From Planctomycetota bacterium (GTDB lineage: Bacteria > Planctomycetota > Planctomycetia > Isosphaerales > Isosphaeraceae): a DNA stretch of 11,005 bases. Below the pieces are notes generated by a model. The model searched no databases, was not told the DNA's origin, and saw only the letters and a list, made by a program, of their open reading frames with translations. Location of the stretch: contig JAJYCH010000079.1 in the NCBI GenBank assembly GCA_021778575.1, forward strand, positions 1 to 11,005, read 5' to 3'. The translations under genes were made by a program, and so were the position numbers. Shown piece after piece: positions 4,681-11,005 of this stretch (positions are counted from its first letter, which is position 1; the number at the start of each line of letters is the position of its first letter).

Positions 4681-4750
4681 GCTCCCTTCGCGTGCGCTCC
4701 CAGGATGGCCCTCTTGTCACAGTCCGGTCGCCCGATTGAGGCTTGATCGG

Positions 4751-4755
4751 GGAGG
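4751..4755 (+). promoter_or_regulatory. Ribosome binding site of the lipoprotein gene
   Basis: GGAGG is followed by 8 bases and the ATG at 4764. It decides the start: an in-frame TTG at 4743 lies upstream of the site and would put acidic residues before the positively charged signal-peptide start. Confidence 0.75.
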
Positions 4756-4763
4756 ATTCCGTC

Positions 4764-5969
4764 ATGGTCCGGCGCTCAATGATCCCCGCTCTCATCGCCC
4801 TGATCGCCGGCGCGGGCTGTAGTGCCGGAACCCCGGGCGGTCAGGTTCGGCAACCCCCGCCGCTGAGCCGCGAGACCTTGACGACGACCCGGATCATTGC
4901 CCAGATCAACAAGAACGCCCGGGCCATCCAGTCGCTCGAAGTCGACCCGGCGATCGAGGTCAGCGAGGGGCTCGGCGACGACGTCGACCGCCATAACGTC
5001 CGGGGTCGGATGCGGATGGAACGGGAGAAGGACTTCCGCCTGGTCCTCTCGGTTCCCGTCCGGGGCAACGTCGCCGACATCGGTTCGAACTCCGAGGGGT
5101 TCTGGTTCTGGGTCAAGGATCAGAACAAGAAAGAAAACGTCATTTATGCGTGCGACTACGAGCATGTCGGTTCGAGCCGACTGTCGGAGACCATGCAGCC
5201 CGACTGGATCATGGAGTCGATGGGTCTCCGCGAATTCAGCGACCACGAAGCCGCCACGATCGATGCCCGTCCCGGTGAGGTCAGCGGTCAGGTTCTCCTG
5301 ACTCAGATTCGCAAGGGGTCGAACGGGGCGACCTACACCAAGGAAACCGTGGTCAACGAGAAGAGTGGCGAGATCATCGAGCATCGACTCTACGCCGGTG
5401 CCAGCAAGAAAGAACTGCTCGCACGGGCCACGATCAAGTCGAGCACGACCAAGATGATCGCTTCCGACAACGGTGGTGAAGTCAAGGTTATCCTCCCGAA
5501 TCACTTCGTTCTCGAATGGGTGGCCGAGAAGTTCAAGCTCGACATCACGATGGGCAGCAGCTTGAAGGTCAATCCGCGATTCACCAAGGAGAATGTCGCC
5601 AACCTGTTCACCGAGCCGACGATCTCCGGAGCCACGCGGGTCGACCTCGCCACGATGGGCCAGGCCCAGGCGGCGGCAGCGCCGTCGCGGGTCTACGAGA
5701 CAATGCCGCGTTCGGGAATCCGGGAGACGATGCCGCGTTCGGGGATCCGACTCGGTCAGCCCCAGGCTGTCCCCTCCGGCGAAGGAGCGAACTCGACCCG
5801 ATCGTCCTCATCGCGGTCGTCACGAGGTTCGTCGCGGAATGATCTGCCCGATCTTCCGCCGGACCCCACGGTGATCGGTCCCGGGATTCCGCAAGGCTCG
5901 GCGAACGACCCAACGGCCGTCCAGGCCTCGGCCCGGGGACTCGGTCTGCGCCCGGTCTTCGAGAATTGA
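4764..5969 (+). CDS. Predicted lipoprotein with LolA-like domain and repetitive Ser/Arg-rich tail
   Basis: The 401-residue product starts MVRRSMIPALIALIAGAGC: a short charged n-region, a hydrophobic core and a lipobox-like GAGC with the acylated Cys at 19. Position -3 is Gly rather than Leu, so the lipobox is imperfect. Residues about 40-285 form one soluble domain with alternating beta-like stretches, including MRMEREKDFRLVLSVP and GSNSEGFWFWV, the sort of block seen in planctomycete proteins distantly like LolA/LolB and DUF4292; this is my impression, not a search result. After about residue 285 the chain becomes low in complexity: an AQAAAAPS stretch, a tandem ETMPRSGIR repeat, a Ser/Arg cluster and Pro/Gly-rich segments, probably disordered. 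It stands alone on the plus strand and ends 25 bases from the convergent operon. A role in carrying or sensing envelope lipid is a guess from the fold type only. Confidence 0.8.
   Translation: MVRRSMIPALIALIAGAGCSAGTPGGQVRQPPPLSRETLTTTRIIAQINKNARAIQSLEVDPAIEVSEGLGDDVDRHNVRGRMRMEREKDFRLVLSVPVRGNVADIGSNSEGFWFWVKDQNKKENVIYACDYEHVGSSRLSETMQPDWIMESMGLREFSDHEAATIDARPGEVSGQVLLTQIRKGSNGATYTKETVVNEKSGEIIEHRLYAGASKKELLARATIKSSTTKMIASDNGGEVKVILPNHFVLEWVAEKFKLDITMGSSLKVNPRFTKENVANLFTEPTISGATRVDLATMGQAQAAAAPSRVYETMPRSGIRETMPRSGIRLGQPQAVPSGEGANSTRSSSSRSSRGSSRNDLPDLPPDPTVIGPGIPQGSANDPTAVQASARGLGLRPVFEN
5697..5750 (+). repeat. Tandem 27-bp repeat inside the lipoprotein gene
   Basis: Two adjacent 27-base units (5697-5723, 5724-5750) differ at only three bases, all silent within the unit, and each encodes ETMPRSGIR. 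It is an in-frame recent duplication in the disordered tail. Confidence 0.85.
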
Positions 5970-5994: not shown

Positions 5995-7548
5995 TCAACG
6001 AACCGGCTCGTGGATCTGCCCCGTGACCTCGCGGAAGAGGTACGGCTGGGGATAGGGTGAGTAAAAGCTGCGGTCGGGAAGCAGCCCGAGCTTCGAGCCG
6101 AAGCCGCGATCGAAGACGAGTCGGAACGTGTTCACGAGCGAGATCGAGGGGTTGATCTCACCACGGATCGTTTCCGGAAGATAGATCGCGTTCAGGACCG
6201 TCATTCGCTCGAAAAGGTCGTTCGGTTCCGGAGTATTGGCGTCGAACCGAGACCCCGAGCCATGATCCCCCTGGATGATGATGATCGGCTCGACCTTCGA
6301 CGTCGACAGGATTCGCTCGACGACTTGCTCGACCCGAGCGCTGAGATAAGCCGCCTGGTCGCGATAGCGTCGGGCATATTCGGCCGAGCCATCAGGTCCT
6401 TCAGGCCTGGTGTCGTTGAGCGTGTAAGCCCCCTCGCGTTCCGAGTAGTCGCGACCATCCGCTCCAAACAGAAACGGCGGATGCGGGGCGACGACATGCG
6501 CGAACGTGAATGTCGGAGCGTCGGAGGGATGACTCGACGCCGGTAGATTCTCAAAGACGTTCAGGATTCGCTGCCGGTGCAGTCGTCGAGGGTCATAGGT
6601 GTTGCGCGATCCCAGGATCAACCAGAGCGGGGTCTGGTCGGCGACGAGCGAAGGGAACGTCCGGAGCCGTTCCGGCGGTCCCAGGTTCAGGTCGCCGACG
6701 ATCGAATCGGTCGCGTCGAACCCCGAATCGAACCTCACCACCCGGTAGCCGAGCTTCCGGAAACTCCGGAACACCAGGCTCTCGGTGATCAAGGTCTTGA
6801 GCGGATGGCGATCCTCCGACGGGCAGCCGGCCAGGTCGTCGAGGTAGCGCAGGTTCAGCGTCGCCGAGAGCGAGAGCATCGTCTGGGTATAGTTCGCGGT
6901 CCCATGGTCGGCGACGAAGAATCCCCGCTGTTTCAGTCGCGCCAGAAATGCCGAGTTGTCGAAACCGATCACCCGTCGGAGTGCATCGGAGCGTCCATAG
7001 GCGTCGAGGACGAGGAAATAGACGTCGGGCAATCGCCCGGACGGCGGGTGGAACGCGGGAATCGGTCGGTCGTCGAGCCGGACCGGAATCACCGCCGGCT
7101 GTTCCCAACGTTCCCTGGCGATGCCCAGGATCGAGAGGGCCAGCAAGGCGCAGGCCGAAGCGTTCAGGAACCCGGTGGATCGCCGCGCCAGGTCCGGCGT
7201 CTTGATCGCGAGAACGACCACGCCAGCCAGCCAAAGCGATTCAATGGCGAGTGCCAGAAACTCCTGAGCCAGGCGGTTCGGGACGACTTCGAGGTGGTCG
7301 ACGAGCCGGACCGCAGGCCCGAACCCGAAGCAAAGCAGCAAGCCGGTCGAGACGATCAGCGAGGCTCGCGGGCCGTCGAGTCGCAGCCCTCGGAGAATCC
7401 CCCAGAGCAGAGTCACGGTCCCGAGGTTCAAGGCGATCGGCAACCAGATCTCGAACAGGTCGATCAGGTGAAGGTTGCGGGAGTAGAGCAGTAAGATCGG
7501 GAACGGGGCGATCAGGAACGGGTGGATCGCCCGGGTTCGCTGGGTCAT
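5995..7548 (-). CDS. Membrane-anchored sulfatase / alkaline-phosphatase-superfamily enzyme
   Basis: 517 residues. About four or five hydrophobic helices occupy residues 11-143 (roughly 11-24, 33-52, 62-80, 94-115, 126-143); the rest is a soluble domain, probably outside the cytoplasmic membrane. Seen in it: PDVYFLVLDAYGRSD (D182, first metal ligand of the superfamily), NYTQTMLSLSATLN (T221 or T223 in the place of the nucleophile), HVVAPHPPF (H351, H356) and IIQGDHGSGS (D428, H429, second metal site). There is no CxPxR sulfatase motif, so a formylglycine sulfatase is unlikely; Thr as nucleophile is as in LtaS and phosphoethanolamine transferases. Known for the superfamily: two-metal hydrolysis or transfer of phosphate, sulfate or phosphoglycerol. 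Inferred: transfer or removal of such a group on a surface glycan or lipid. Its ATG overlaps the TGA of the methyltransferase gene (ATGA at 7545-7548), with GAGG five bases before the ATG, so it is the last gene of the operon. Confidence 0.85.
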   Translation of the reverse strand: MTQRTRAIHPFLIAPFPILLLYSRNLHLIDLFEIWLPIALNLGTVTLLWGILRGLRLDGPRASLIVSTGLLLCFGFGPAVRLVDHLEVVPNRLAQEFLALAIESLWLAGVVVLAIKTPDLARRSTGFLNASACALLALSILGIARERWEQPAVIPVRLDDRPIPAFHPPSGRLPDVYFLVLDAYGRSDALRRVIGFDNSAFLARLKQRGFFVADHGTANYTQTMLSLSATLNLRYLDDLAGCPSEDRHPLKTLITESLVFRSFRKLGYRVVRFDSGFDATDSIVGDLNLGPPERLRTFPSLVADQTPLWLILGSRNTYDPRRLHRQRILNVFENLPASSHPSDAPTFTFAHVVAPHPPFLFGADGRDYSEREGAYTLNDTRPEGPDGSAEYARRYRDQAAYLSARVEQVVERILSTSKVEPIIIIQGDHGSGSRFDANTPEPNDLFERMTVLNAIYLPETIRGEINPSISLVNTFRLVFDRGFGSKLGLLPDRSFYSPYPQPYLFREVTGQIHEPVR

Positions 7549-9011
7549 TCCGGCCTCGCTCGCATCAGGTAGAGCGTCCGCTCGGTCTCGATGATCGGCT
7601 CGGCGCGCTCGATCGCGAAATGCTCGACGAACGCCGATTCGAAACCGTCGGAGGTGTAGTCGGGAAAAACGTCGGCCCTCGAAGCCAGAAGCCGCTGGAC
7701 CTGCGAATCCTGCTTGGGCACGAATTCAATAATCAACGACTGACACGTTGACCGCAGAAACCGCGCGATCCGCTCCAGCGGGACATTGGCCGAGATCGCC
7801 AGGTGATGAATCAAGGCCAGGGCCATGCTCAGGTCGACCGGACCTCGATCGAGCAGCGACGATCGTTCGGTGTGCGCCCAACCCAGCGCCGGGCTGGGAT
7901 TGGTCAGGTCGAGCCAGAGCGGCAGGATTTTTTGCTCGTCGCGAGCGAGCCCATCGCGGTAGTTCCGTTCGACGCAGGCGGGATCGACGTCGAAGGCCAC
8001 CGTGGAGGCTCCGCGCTCCGAGGCCAACCGGCTATAACGCCCCGTGTTCGCCCCCAGGTCCCAGACGGTCCGAGGGCGAACCCGGTCGAGGAACTCGGCG
8101 ACCAGATCGACCTTCCGACCGGTCGCCCCGGTCGAGTAGTTGGTCTCGGAATAATAGTCGGCCCATTCGGTTCCCGCCGGACTCCAGCGCAGCGACTTGA
8201 TCGCCCCTTCGAGACTATCAATCAGCCCGAGCAGCGCGTGTTTCGAGAACGCCGGACTTGATCCGCCGGGACTGGCTTTCGACTTGGCCCTGGTCTTGGT
8301 CTTGGTCTTGGTCTGCCCGGCATAGGCTTTCTCGGCACGCGCATGCAGGTGAAGATGGATCAGAAGCCTCGGGTCGAACCGGGTCTTCCAGGGCAAGAGC
8401 CGGCTGGCCAGTTCGAGCGAGATCCCTTCGAGGCTGGGCTGCATCAACTGGTTGAGCCGGACGTCCACGAGGCTCATCAGGGCCAGGGGAGCAAGAAAGT
8501 TCCGGCAGAACTGGCGATAGGCCACCCAGGGGGTTCCGTCGCGATGCGTCTCGAACGAGAGCGAGTCGATGAAGATCGGTCGGGAGCCGATAAACTGGAC
8601 GTTGAAGGCCGAGGCATCCTTGAGCGACATCCCATAAGTGAGCGCCTGCTTCTGGAGCGTGAGCGTCAACAGTGCCGCCGCCTTGAGCTGGCCGAAGCAC
8701 CACTCGTAGGGATACGAGATGAACGGGACGCGCTCCGGGCGGAGGATCTTGTACGCACTCTCGGGTTCGCTGGGGGGCTCGTCAACCTCGGAATAAGGAA
8801 TGACGAGTCGATCATCGATCAGCGTCCGGGCGAGTCCGGAGGCGACCAGACGGTCGTAATCCGCCTGGTAAGCCCGGTTCACCTGTCGATAGAGCGTCCC
8901 GTCGCGTTCGAAGACGAAACCGCTCGGGTCGCGAAACGACCCGGGCGTTCTTCGGTCCGCGCCGTTATCGGATCTTGGCGGTCTGATGGCCATGGACGGT
9001 CGGTCTCGCAT
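7545..9011 (-). CDS. Two-part protein: kinase-like N-terminal half fused to SAM-dependent methyltransferase
   Basis: 488 residues. The C-terminal half (about 285-488) is a class I methyltransferase: motif I WDLGANTG at 317-324, the acidic end of beta-2 in AFDVD (D341), ALALIHHL at 398-405 as motif IV, and late-strand IIEFVPK. The N-terminal half (about 25-230) holds SYPYEWCFGQLKAAALL and LKDASAFNVQF followed by PIFIDSLSFE. D132 with N137 and then D149 copies the spacing of the catalytic loop (DxxxxN) and metal Asp of aminoglycoside/choline-kinase-like folds, suggesting a kinase-like domain; this is inference. The halves are joined by a Lys/Thr linker (QTKTKTKTRAKSKAS, about 233-247). I recall similar two-part proteins, some annotated NoeA-like, in other bacteria. 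The start at 9011 overlaps the preceding small gene by 47 bases; ATG 8993 is an alternative but has no better ribosome site. The methyl acceptor is unknown. Confidence 0.82.
   Translation of the reverse strand: MRDRPSMAIRPPRSDNGADRRTPGSFRDPSGFVFERDGTLYRQVNRAYQADYDRLVASGLARTLIDDRLVIPYSEVDEPPSEPESAYKILRPERVPFISYPYEWCFGQLKAAALLTLTLQKQALTYGMSLKDASAFNVQFIGSRPIFIDSLSFETHRDGTPWVAYRQFCRNFLAPLALMSLVDVRLNQLMQPSLEGISLELASRLLPWKTRFDPRLLIHLHLHARAEKAYAGQTKTKTKTRAKSKASPGGSSPAFSKHALLGLIDSLEGAIKSLRWSPAGTEWADYYSETNYSTGATGRKVDLVAEFLDRVRPRTVWDLGANTGRYSRLASERGASTVAFDVDPACVERNYRDGLARDEQKILPLWLDLTNPSPALGWAHTERSSLLDRGPVDLSMALALIHHLAISANVPLERIARFLRSTCQSLIIEFVPKQDSQVQRLLASRADVFPDYTSDGFESAFVEHFAIERAEPIIETERTLYLMRARPE
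8291..8314 (-). repeat. Hexamer microsatellite (TGGTCT)x4 in the methyltransferase gene
   Basis: Four perfect copies of TGGTCT on the plus strand read as alternating Lys-Thr codons on the coding strand. The unit is six bases, so gain or loss changes only the length of the linker between the two domains and never the frame. Confidence 0.9.
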
Positions 9012-9273
9012 TGTCCGGAGAACCAGGACTCGGGGTGTTTCGCACGGAGCGCGAATCGGCGGTGGGCGGGGAAGTCTCGAAGCGGCGGCTCAGCCAGAGC
9101 TTCAGGTTCGACCAGGACTGCTTGAGCGCGAAAACGCCGCCGAAGAAGGTCGCCAGCAGAATCTGGAGCGCGAAGCTTCCGGTCCCGGGATCGAGATACG
9201 CCAGGATCGGAGCCGGCCAATCCGTGGCGATTCCCGTCAGCCAGTTGAGTGGTAGATCAAACCAAGATGGCAT
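8965..9273 (-). CDS. Small membrane protein with YLDPGTGS motif
   Basis: 102 residues, first gene of the three-gene operon. Seen: a tryptophan-rich amphipathic N-terminus (1-24), the motif AYLDPGTGSF at 25-34, one hydrophobic segment at about 34-50, a basic stretch (KLWLSRRF, 58-65) and a polar Ser/Pro-rich tail that is probably disordered. GGAG eight bases before the ATG at 9273 supports the start. From memory, short proteins with a Y-[LI]-DPGTGS motif followed by a single membrane helix recur in many bacteria next to phosphodiesterase or sulfatase-like and methyltransferase genes; no function is established to my knowledge. The last 47 bases overlap the methyltransferase reading frame, so the two are likely translationally coupled. 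It may be a membrane partner or scaffold for the other two products; that is inference. Confidence 0.75.
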   Translation of the reverse strand: MPSWFDLPLNWLTGIATDWPAPILAYLDPGTGSFALQILLATFFGGVFALKQSWSNLKLWLSRRFETSPPTADSRSVRNTPSPGSPDNARPTVHGHQTAKIR

Positions 9274-9281
9274 GAATCAGA

Positions 9282-9285
9282 CTCC
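9282..9285 (-). promoter_or_regulatory. Ribosome binding site of the small membrane protein gene
   Basis: GGAG on the minus strand lies eight bases before the ATG at 9273. It is the clearest ribosome site in the operon and supports translation of the small ORF. Confidence 0.6.
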
Positions 9286-9961
9286 ATTCGTTCGAGAACG
9301 GTTCCGGCAAATCCGGGACGGCGGACTGGTCGTGCCCCGGGCAACGAGACCCGGTGACTCGGCTGATCCGTCACCCCACCAGGTGTCGGGAACCAATCCC
9401 ACGAGATCCGTGGGGTCCGTCCCTCCGAGAGGCGGTCGTGACCTCTCGATCGGTATTCGCAAGCCTGAAGTCCTACGTCCCTCAGCGCGATAAGTTATCA
9501 GCGACAAATCCCCGGGAACCGGACAGACAAAGTGGTGAAAACCTGGCAATTATCAGCAAAATAGAAATTGTGGATCAGTGCGATCCGTGCTCGATCCGAG
9601 ACGGGACGCCGGTGGTTCCAGCGTCCGCCCACGGTTCACGATCCGGAATGAAATCGACCAGGCGATGGTTATCCAGGAGAATGTCGCAAGGTCGCTTACG
9701 ACCTGCGGGAGAGATCATCGTGTCGTCCATCAAGCGACGACCCAGGATGATTCTCGGCTTCGGGGGGGAAGTCGAGCCCGAGAACGGGCGGGAAGAGTTT
9801 TGGCCGCGATGGCGACCGGTTTTCGACCCTCATCGAGAGAAACGTTAACGGATTTCGGCAATTCTGACCAGCCGAGATCGACCGAGTCGGCCCGCGTGGG
9901 TGTGCCCGGATTTTCTGGGGGCTCTGGTCGACCCTACCCTCGGCATTGCGACGAAGCCCTC

Positions 9962-10101
9962 ATCTGGAGTGCGAGAGCTTGCTCTCGCTCTGGCGACCGG
10001 AGCTTGCTCCGAGCCCGAATAACATGGCCAACGGTTACCCCGCAAAGACCGTGGAGCAAGCTCCACGAAGCAGAGCGAGAGCAAGCTCTCGCACTCCAGA
10101 T
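9962..10101. mobile_element. 140-bp nested palindromic element (REP/MITE-like)
   Basis: The outer arms, 9962-9992 and 10071-10101, are a perfect 31-bp inverted repeat. Inside them a second pair, GGAGCTTGCTCC at 9999-10010 and its complement at 10053-10064, sits at exactly mirrored distances (coordinate sums all equal 20063), while the bases between arms have diverged. Each outer arm also folds on itself: GCGAGAGC-TT-GCTCTCGC is an 8-bp hairpin. The centre (10011-10052) is unique and carries no ORF. This could be a REP-like or miniature inverted-repeat element mobilised in trans. No clear target-site duplication is seen at the edges, and no other copy is in this window, so mobility is inferred. 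Confidence 0.7.
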
Positions 10102-10228
10102 AACCAATCCGTCCGAGTCCCCACCAGAACATTCGGGTTTATCCGCCCGCGTCCCCGGAGACCGCTCGATCCGATGGTCGTGACTTGTCGACCGGAATTG
10201 GCGGGCGTTTCGAGCTTCGGAGTTCCGC

Positions 10229-11005
10229 TCAGGTCCGGATCGTATCCCAGCGGGCCACGGCGATCGTTCCGAAGAAGATCAACGGTAGCCAGGCCGCCAG
10301 CTCGGGGCTATAAAGCTGGTGGCCACCAAGATACTGGCTCATGAAGTTGAATGAATAGAACAACCCGGAGGTCCCGAGCGACATTCCGAGGTTCACGAAC
10401 ATGTTCCGCCCCGCTCCGCCCAGGACGAGCGGGAGGCTCAGGAGCATCAGGTTGAAGCTCAGGAGCGGGCGGATCATCCGCGAATGGAGGAAGATCTCCA
10501 TGTCGATCCGTTCGGCCACGTTCGACGGGTCGGACAGGCCGCGGATCAGCTCGATCGTCGGGGCGAAGTGGTACCAGCGCCGGCTTCGGGTCAGCGACGA
10601 GAACGTCAGGTCGGTCTTGAGGAAATAGACCTTGCCGTTCATGCGTCCGGCCAGCTTATCCTTGGGCGGTGGATAGGGGGAAGGGTCTTCGATCCGGCTG
10701 AGAACCCCTTTGGTCAAGACGTCGAGCGACTTCGCCCCTTCGTTGGCCAGGAAGCTGGTGTTCCAGAGAATCCAGCCACCATTGAGGGGATAGCGCTTGT
10801 CGTCGAGAGGGATGTACTGGGCTTCGAGCGCCGAGATCTCGATCAGTTCGCCGGCGACCCGGACCGGGATCGTCGCCGAGAACGGGGCGACCGACCGCGT
10901 GGCGCGCTCGGCCATGTTACCCGACAGGAAGACCTCGTTCGTATCCTGCCGGGGATAGACCTTCACGAGCCGCTGACCATCGTCGTCGGGGTCTTTCTGC
11001 AATTC
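10229..11005 (-). CDS. LptF/LptG-family permease, C-terminal part, 5' end cut by window edge
   Basis: 258 residues are visible, and the frame is open at the right edge, so the true start lies outside. Known for the family (YjgP/YjgQ): inner-membrane half of the LptB2FG transporter that extracts lipopolysaccharide and passes it to the periplasmic bridge; six helices with a jellyroll domain between helices 3 and 4. Seen: a soluble part of about 170 residues rich in short beta-like segments, fitting the jellyroll domain, then three hydrophobic helices (RPLLSFNLMLLSLPLVLG, the segment around NLGMSLGTSGLFYSFNF, and AAWLPLIFFGTIAVARW), which is the canonical C-terminal arrangement. LptF and LptG cannot be told apart from this fragment. 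It ends without an obvious terminator hairpin; the palindromic element starts about 130 bases downstream of the stop. Its presence suggests an organism with an outer-membrane glycolipid export route. Confidence 0.85.
   Translation of the reverse strand, partial: ELQKDPDDDGQRLVKVYPRQDTNEVFLSGNMAERATRSVAPFSATIPVRVAGELIEISALEAQYIPLDDKRYPLNGGWILWNTSFLANEGAKSLDVLTKGVLSRIEDPSPYPPPKDKLAGRMNGKVYFLKTDLTFSSLTRSRRWYHFAPTIELIRGLSDPSNVAERIDMEIFLHSRMIRPLLSFNLMLLSLPLVLGGAGRNMFVNLGMSLGTSGLFYSFNFMSQYLGGHQLYSPELAAWLPLIFFGTIAVARWDTIRT

Follow-up and report, generated by a model that had tools for sequence, protein, structure and literature searches.

The rhizobial genes noeA and noeB were reportedly named as host-range genes in 1995, according to passages in papers that cite that work. 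Their products are, in a more recent account, still only hypothesized to modify the Nod factor (PMC9048898), and a truncated noeA has been suggested to explain why strain M162 failed to nodulate (PMC4053727). The linkage of genes for a kinase-methyltransferase and an alkaline-phosphatase-fold protein, of the Lani_1194 type, has already been published (PMC9758233); the main text of that paper does not mention a DPGTGS motif and does not describe the neighbor Lani_1193, present in 65% of 816 neighborhoods, which might be the DPGTGS protein. Here we describe an 11,005-nucleotide stretch of a Planctomycetota contig (JAJYCH010000079.1; "the window"), in which three overlapping genes encode a small protein with a YLDPGTGS motif, a NoeA-like kinase-methyltransferase, and a NoeB-like membrane enzyme. 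The trio resembles NoeA-NoeB of Sinorhizobium meliloti and the Lani_1194-type pair in homology and, on pSymA, in the order small open reading frame (ORF)-noeA-noeB; the published accounts examined treat noeA and noeB. Pairing of the NoeA/NoeB type is known (PMC9758233); less expected is a small protein, seemingly overlooked, beside nearly every NoeA-like gene examined.

The earlier note on this DNA, made from the sequence alone, had called for a gene-neighborhood survey, which we carried out by searching genome contigs with an alignment of NoeA-like proteins. The best 80 of 519 confirmed loci, titled Chloroflexi, Zixibacteria, Omnitrophota, Armatimonadetes, Phycisphaerae, Bacillota, Methanoculleus, and others, were taken as the named loci, with Actinobacteria and Legionella outside the sampling. 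A small ORF adjoins the NoeA-like gene on the same strand in 76 of these 80, and in the remaining four the start of the NoeA-like gene is no more than about 200 bases from where the contig stops; on a stricter count, the small ORF is present in 74/74 loci with more than 350 nucleotides (nt) before the NoeA ORF. The archaeon Methanoculleus also has a small ORF adjoining its NoeA-like gene. Among 82 measured distances from the small-gene stop to the conserved SFRDP codons, with the window's locus and six from plasmids counted in, the commonest is 17 nt, and in a few outliers the small ORF lies downstream, or about 1 kb upstream, of the NoeA-like gene.

In genomes sampled phylum by phylum, NoeA-like genes were present in 13 of 149 from the window's phylum, 26 of 282 from that of locus L054, 5 of 198 from that of L009, and 4 of 148 from that of Methanoculleus L016, and the small ORF stood beside 11/13, 26/26 (25 on the same strand; L182 on the opposite one), 5/5, and 4/4 of them. 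This amounts to 46 of 48 loci, a set that includes the window itself and four loci (L160, L161, L184, L189) repeating genomes of the best 80; the two loci without a small ORF are L093, where the gene reaches the locus end, and L100, matched in its methyltransferase part alone. When, conversely, L018's phylum was searched with a small-protein profile, 20 of its 151 genomes (two of them, those of L018 and L036, already among the best 80) gave matches, at 22 places, 19 of which adjoin a NoeA-like gene. The same profile matched all 25 genomes or records behind surveyed loci, with exactly one match in 20, and also matched seven further genomes, once each. Rare adjacency of the homologues outside close relatives would have counted against the earlier note's reading; the small and NoeA-like genes are together in nearly every locus of both surveys.

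A homologue search matched the small protein to 11 database proteins, itself included, and since the ORF is conserved both there and in the named loci, where its four absences fall at contig ends, it is not a chance ORF. That possibility was ruled out by the 10 other database homologues, by a motif control (75 occurrences in 345,624 bp near NoeA-like genes vs 1 in 494,047 bp elsewhere), and by hold-out profiles: one built without alphaproteobacterial rows recovered the ORFs of L002 (4e-16), L006 (2e-14), and L007 (2e-16), and another, from which the rows of the window, L003, and L060 had been removed, recovered the window ORF (2e-17). The sole distant motif belongs to a second small-gene copy in L025. 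The L025 locus appears as a tandem expansion, with two small-gene copies and four NoeB-like matches.

Within a 33-row alignment, Y, D, S, and Q of the small protein are invariant and the motif Thr position is variable (T, S, A, or V), with variants including YLDAASAS and YIDPAAGS. Beyond this alignment, the motif Asp or Ser changes in a few proteins (L086, L181, L183, L187), and looser motifs in sampled genomes include YLDPGTGT (L092), YLEPGTGS (L181), YVNPGVGQ (L183), and YNDPGSMS (L187); the L024 ORF, counted among the 76, is degenerate (CLDPGTAN). For the family members run, nothing in Pfam exceeded its cut-off and NCBIfam returned no match; a Pfam row for TRAPP14_C fell below its cut-off and was ignored. 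Across 76 sequences the motif is without Lys or Arg, the 20 residues past the helix average 4.5 Lys/Arg, and in 50 of 76 (26 are without it) a signal-peptidase-like site and hydrophobic stretch precede the Tyr. Based upon these features, the protein is predicted to cross the inner membrane once, with the motif outside and the basic tail inside. The single-helix YLDPGTGS protein seen in the earlier note, which had named lack of conservation of this ORF as a ground for refutation, belongs to a conserved family with one predicted membrane helix.

The same arrangement occurs in the rhizobial nod operon. On S. meliloti pSymA (CP140953), nodL and noeA flank a gene for a 'hypothetical protein' of 71 amino acids (aa) containing PAHAYLDPGTGSMLVQGL; this gene shares 23 bases with noeA, and the order small ORF-noeA-noeB is that of the window. 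Tblastn locates the protein in 61 records of plasmids, every one from Sinorhizobium, Rhizobium, or Ensifer, which are near-copies and not independent; the NoeA-bearing records of Sinorhizobium, Rhizobium, and Ensifer reach the same total (57 + 3 + 1 of 65 records). Over its 71 codons, the small gene differs between two plasmids by 11 synonymous and 9 non-synonymous changes, and strong constraint is not evident. Relatives of the small protein also adjoin NoeA-like genes on Rhizobium, Novosphingobium, Gemmatirosa, and Singulisphaera plasmids, and on a deltaproteobacterium plasmid one lies downstream of the NoeA-like gene.

The NoeA-like protein is a full-length homologue of Sinorhizobium NoeA (36.8% identity over 94%, E 9e-59 by tblastn). 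Residues D132, N137, and D149 are invariant in 18 aligned rows, NoeA included, and following PMC9758233 they would be the equivalents of D166, N171, and D184 of protein kinase A. The two-part kinase-like/methyltransferase protein of the earlier note stands, with kinase-like residues and a methyltransferase domain, and its family, being that of NoeA, is not wholly uncharacterized. WbdD of E. coli O9a likewise combines a kinase and an S-adenosylmethionine (SAM) methyltransferase in one protein, but there the methyltransferase comes first, followed by the kinase and a coiled coil (PMC3482155), whereas in the NoeA-like protein the kinase-like residues (132-149) precede a methyltransferase (280-488) that runs to the protein end. 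The NoeA-like and NoeB-like enzymes were each modeled alone. WbdD was the top Foldseek row for the NoeA-like model, over 220 alignment columns at a template modeling score of only about 0.3. The methyl-phosphate methyltransferases 6dcc and 6l8u were among the methyltransferase matches, but because they were tied with many other structures we give them no weight. A PDB sequence search returned no significant relative of either enzyme (best E 0.13), and a phage collection held no match for the NoeA-like protein. The linker of the window protein (about 8260-8320) carries a short Lys/Thr-rich insertion (TKTKTKTRAKSK) missing from most aligned relatives.

The NoeB-like protein matches PF00884 in Pfam, and a NoeB-like profile matches Sinorhizobium NoeB at 4e-14. 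Six residues, D182, T223, H351, H356, D428, and H429, are invariant in 41 aligned NoeB-like sequences, and by analogy we take them to be metal and nucleophile residues. The earlier note had placed a Thr at the nucleophile position of a multi-helix alkaline-phosphatase-superfamily enzyme, as T223 bears out. EptA, EptC, MCR, and BcsG resemble the NoeB-like protein in their membrane helices and alkaline-phosphatase-superfamily domain, and their nucleophile is Thr, but identity in structure alignments is 8-12%. In the NoeB-like model (predicted local distance difference test score 92; DSSP), long N-terminal helices, read by us as five membrane helices, lie ahead of the enzyme domain, the layout of EptA/LtaS-type phosphotransferases, and the best structure match is the phosphoethanolamine transferase EptC. 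Thus, where the earlier note had considered all three proteins uncharacterized, the second and third are homologues of NoeA and NoeB, whose pairing is in print (PMC9758233); for the small protein, searches of the open-licence literature for NoeA/NoeB, DPGTGS, or the gene types found no description.

A same-strand NoeB-like gene was found in 48 of the 73 named loci with more than 900 nt downstream (E<1e-3; directly downstream in 42), and in 44 of 73 at E<1e-20. In the sampled phyla, where loci span only about 1.5 kb on each side, the counts were 8/13 (the window's), 10/26 (L054's), 3/5 (L009's), and 3/4 (L016's), and in L018's phylum 0/19, with an opposite-strand match in 10. Some loci without a NoeB-like gene have another PF00884 gene directly downstream (L016, L045, L050, with L032 sharing that of L016), and in L053 and L059 the PF00884 genes are encoded on the other strand; weak NoeB-like matches had no Pfam match (L056) or fell below the Pfam cut-off (L077, L028). 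Because the third gene is often replaced or unrecognized, the constant core is the small protein plus the NoeA-like protein, usually joined by a replaceable third member, the alkaline-phosphatase-superfamily gene. The conserved trio cassette of the earlier note holds for this core, which extends far beyond close relatives, but not for a fixed third gene.

In seven loci (L113, L126, L127, L128, L129, L130, L148), a small ORF is followed directly, without an intervening NoeA, by an ORF of the alkaline phosphatase superfamily. The downstream genes of L113 and L126 encode an N-terminus that looks NoeB-like (PF00884 E 0.0015 in L126, below cut-off), that of L127 is PF00884, and those of L128, L129, L130, and L148 are PF01663; the small ORFs of these last five match the profile more weakly (3e-10 to 6e-7), with YIDPNTGG or YIDPGSGG motifs. 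Since copies without NoeA precede alkaline-phosphatase-superfamily genes, the small protein seems to bridge two types of enzyme. In L149, where a small ORF comes without a NoeA match, a NoeB-like ORF lies on the opposite strand. A separate cluster was seen in L059, where three consecutive alkaline-phosphatase-superfamily-like genes (7398-13367), one of which was run in Pfam and is PF00884, lie opposite the NoeA-like strand; that genome has two further small-protein copies among such genes, of which L127 directly precedes one and the other has a neighbor only partly visible.

We tentatively read the trio, at somewhat less than an even chance, as a NoeA/NoeB-type cassette, associated with the membrane, that would modify the envelope and in which the small protein would anchor or bridge the enzymes. 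An analogy in layout is BcsE-BcsF-BcsG, with a cytosolic partner, a small single-pass protein, and a membrane phosphotransferase in one operon (PMC11470070); BcsE, unlike the NoeA-like protein, is not a kinase-methyltransferase, and the likeness is one of analogy only. For the complex, its substrate, and the order of reactions we infer the following scheme. The DPGTGS protein would make a single pass through the inner membrane, its motif on the outer face and its basic tail in the cytosol, where the tail may recruit the kinase-methyltransferase to the membrane in the way that BcsF retains BcsE for cellulose secretion (PMC11470070). Its membrane or outer part would lie near the EptA/EptC-like enzyme. 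On the inner face, the NoeA-like protein would phosphorylate and methylate a glycolipid or lipid-linked sugar, giving a phosphate or perhaps a methyl phosphate comparable to the cap made by WbdD (PMC3482155), and the NoeB-like Thr nucleophile would then move a phospho-group onto or off this product at the outer face.

Several observations weigh against this cassette. In E. coli Bcs, BcsF and BcsE make no contact with BcsG (PMC11470070). The alkaline-phosphatase-superfamily partner is missing or unrecognized in part of the loci, and NoeA may therefore work without it. Soluble sulfatases score nearly as high on the NoeB-like model as transferases (Z to 21.9), and with EptC the best match, the "sulfo-" modification suggested in the earlier note finds no specific support. 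In the structure search with the NoeA-like model, the methyltransferase domain, and not the putative N-terminal kinase part, filled the matches listed. No glycosyltransferase gene was recognized within the window, and in ten Chloroflexi loci, including L084 (the one checked by Pfam), the small and NoeA-like genes stand beside a topoisomerase I gene. As an observation apart, a conserved 343-aa protein without a Pfam match is encoded in the conserved neighborhood of the same ten loci.

Other roles for the small protein would fit parts of these data. It could mainly assist the alkaline-phosphatase-superfamily enzyme, as its partner or its chaperone, with the NoeA-like protein linked but not in direct contact, which would explain the seven copies lying directly before such genes; yet 25 of 73 loci have the small and NoeA genes and no same-strand NoeB-like gene (at least four of them have another PF00884-type gene), the small gene overlaps NoeA, and five of the seven copies are the weak profile matches, so that we consider this unlikely. 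It is very improbable that the substrate is the small protein, with the outer enzyme acting on the Thr/Ser of its exposed YLDPGTGS end or the kinase-methyltransferase acting on its tail: the invariant Y, D, S, and Q and the signal-peptidase-like site right before the Tyr in many members are in keeping with it, but the Thr position varies and the motif drifts, the Asp or Ser itself changes in a few proteins, the motif is on the wrong side of the membrane for the kinase, and the tail has no conserved Ser/Thr/Tyr column in the 33-row alignment.

A different question is whether the set modifies a lipid (a phospholipid or polyprenyl phosphate) and not a glycan. Its spread across very different envelopes, including that of Methanoculleus, would suit a lipid, as would the nearest membrane folds to the NoeB-like model, which include phosphatidylethanolamine-using transferases and YejM. 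The rhizobial copy, in contrast, lies directly behind nodL, a Nod-factor acetyltransferase gene, and the hypothesis for NoeA and NoeB noted above concerns the Nod factor, and we think lipid modification decidedly unlikely.

In the window, the three minus-strand frames and overlaps given in the earlier note were found again: 47 bases between the small and NoeA-like genes (8965-9011) and 4 bases (ATGA, 7545-7548) between the NoeA-like and NoeB-like genes. By eye, GGAG lies 8 nt 5' of the small-gene ATG and nothing comparable precedes the NoeA-like ATG, in agreement with the note's single good ribosome site. Close NoeA-like homologues start at the window protein's internal Met7, and the first overlap may therefore be 29 bases.

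Features of the locus, in window coordinates
Feature	Position	Strand	Details and basis
DPGTGS small bitopic membrane protein	8965..9273	-	102 aa; ORF and homologues
YLDPGTGS motif, residues 26-33	9175..9198	-	predicted outer end of membrane helix
NoeA-like kinase-methyltransferase	7545..9011	-	488 aa; likely start is the internal ATG at 8993
Kinase-like domain, about residues 20-240	8292..8954	-	conserved residues; family assigned as a kinase in PMC9758233
Class I SAM methyltransferase domain, about residues 280-488	7548..8174	-	Pfam below cut-off and structure comparison
NoeB-like membrane alkaline-phosphatase-superfamily enzyme	5995..7548	-	517 aa; Pfam, alignment, structure model
NoeB-like membrane region, residues 9-152, read as five helices	7093..7524	-	structure model
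T223 codon, putative catalytic nucleophile, start of helix 223-231	6880..6882	-	alignment and model

The best-named protein relatives are those of Tundrisphaera and of an Isosphaeraceae bacterium, which points to a planctomycete, and the source assembly is incomplete (75% complete, 883 contigs). A promoter and terminator scan of 9200-10300 gave nothing exceeding shuffles. Convergent with the trio is a 408-aa ORF (4743-5969) with a lipoprotein-like start and only a sub-threshold DnaA_N match in Pfam, and about 950 bases upstream, on the same strand, lies the C-terminal part of an LptF/LptG-family permease (10229-11005).

We see about an even chance that DPGTGS proteins are a pan-prokaryotic family of single-pass adaptors joining cytosolic kinase-methyltransferases to membrane phosphotransferases of the alkaline phosphatase superfamily, and that the nodL-noeA-noeB operon holds an unrecognized member needed by NoeA and NoeB. 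The partners of motif-bearing systems include more than one alkaline-phosphatase-superfamily branch, and the YLDPGTGS-type motif is a marker for finding such systems. The small protein, as a further linked component whose range extends from archaea to rhizobia, indicates what to co-purify and co-express with NoeA, and noeA constructs made without the small gene may have missed a partner.

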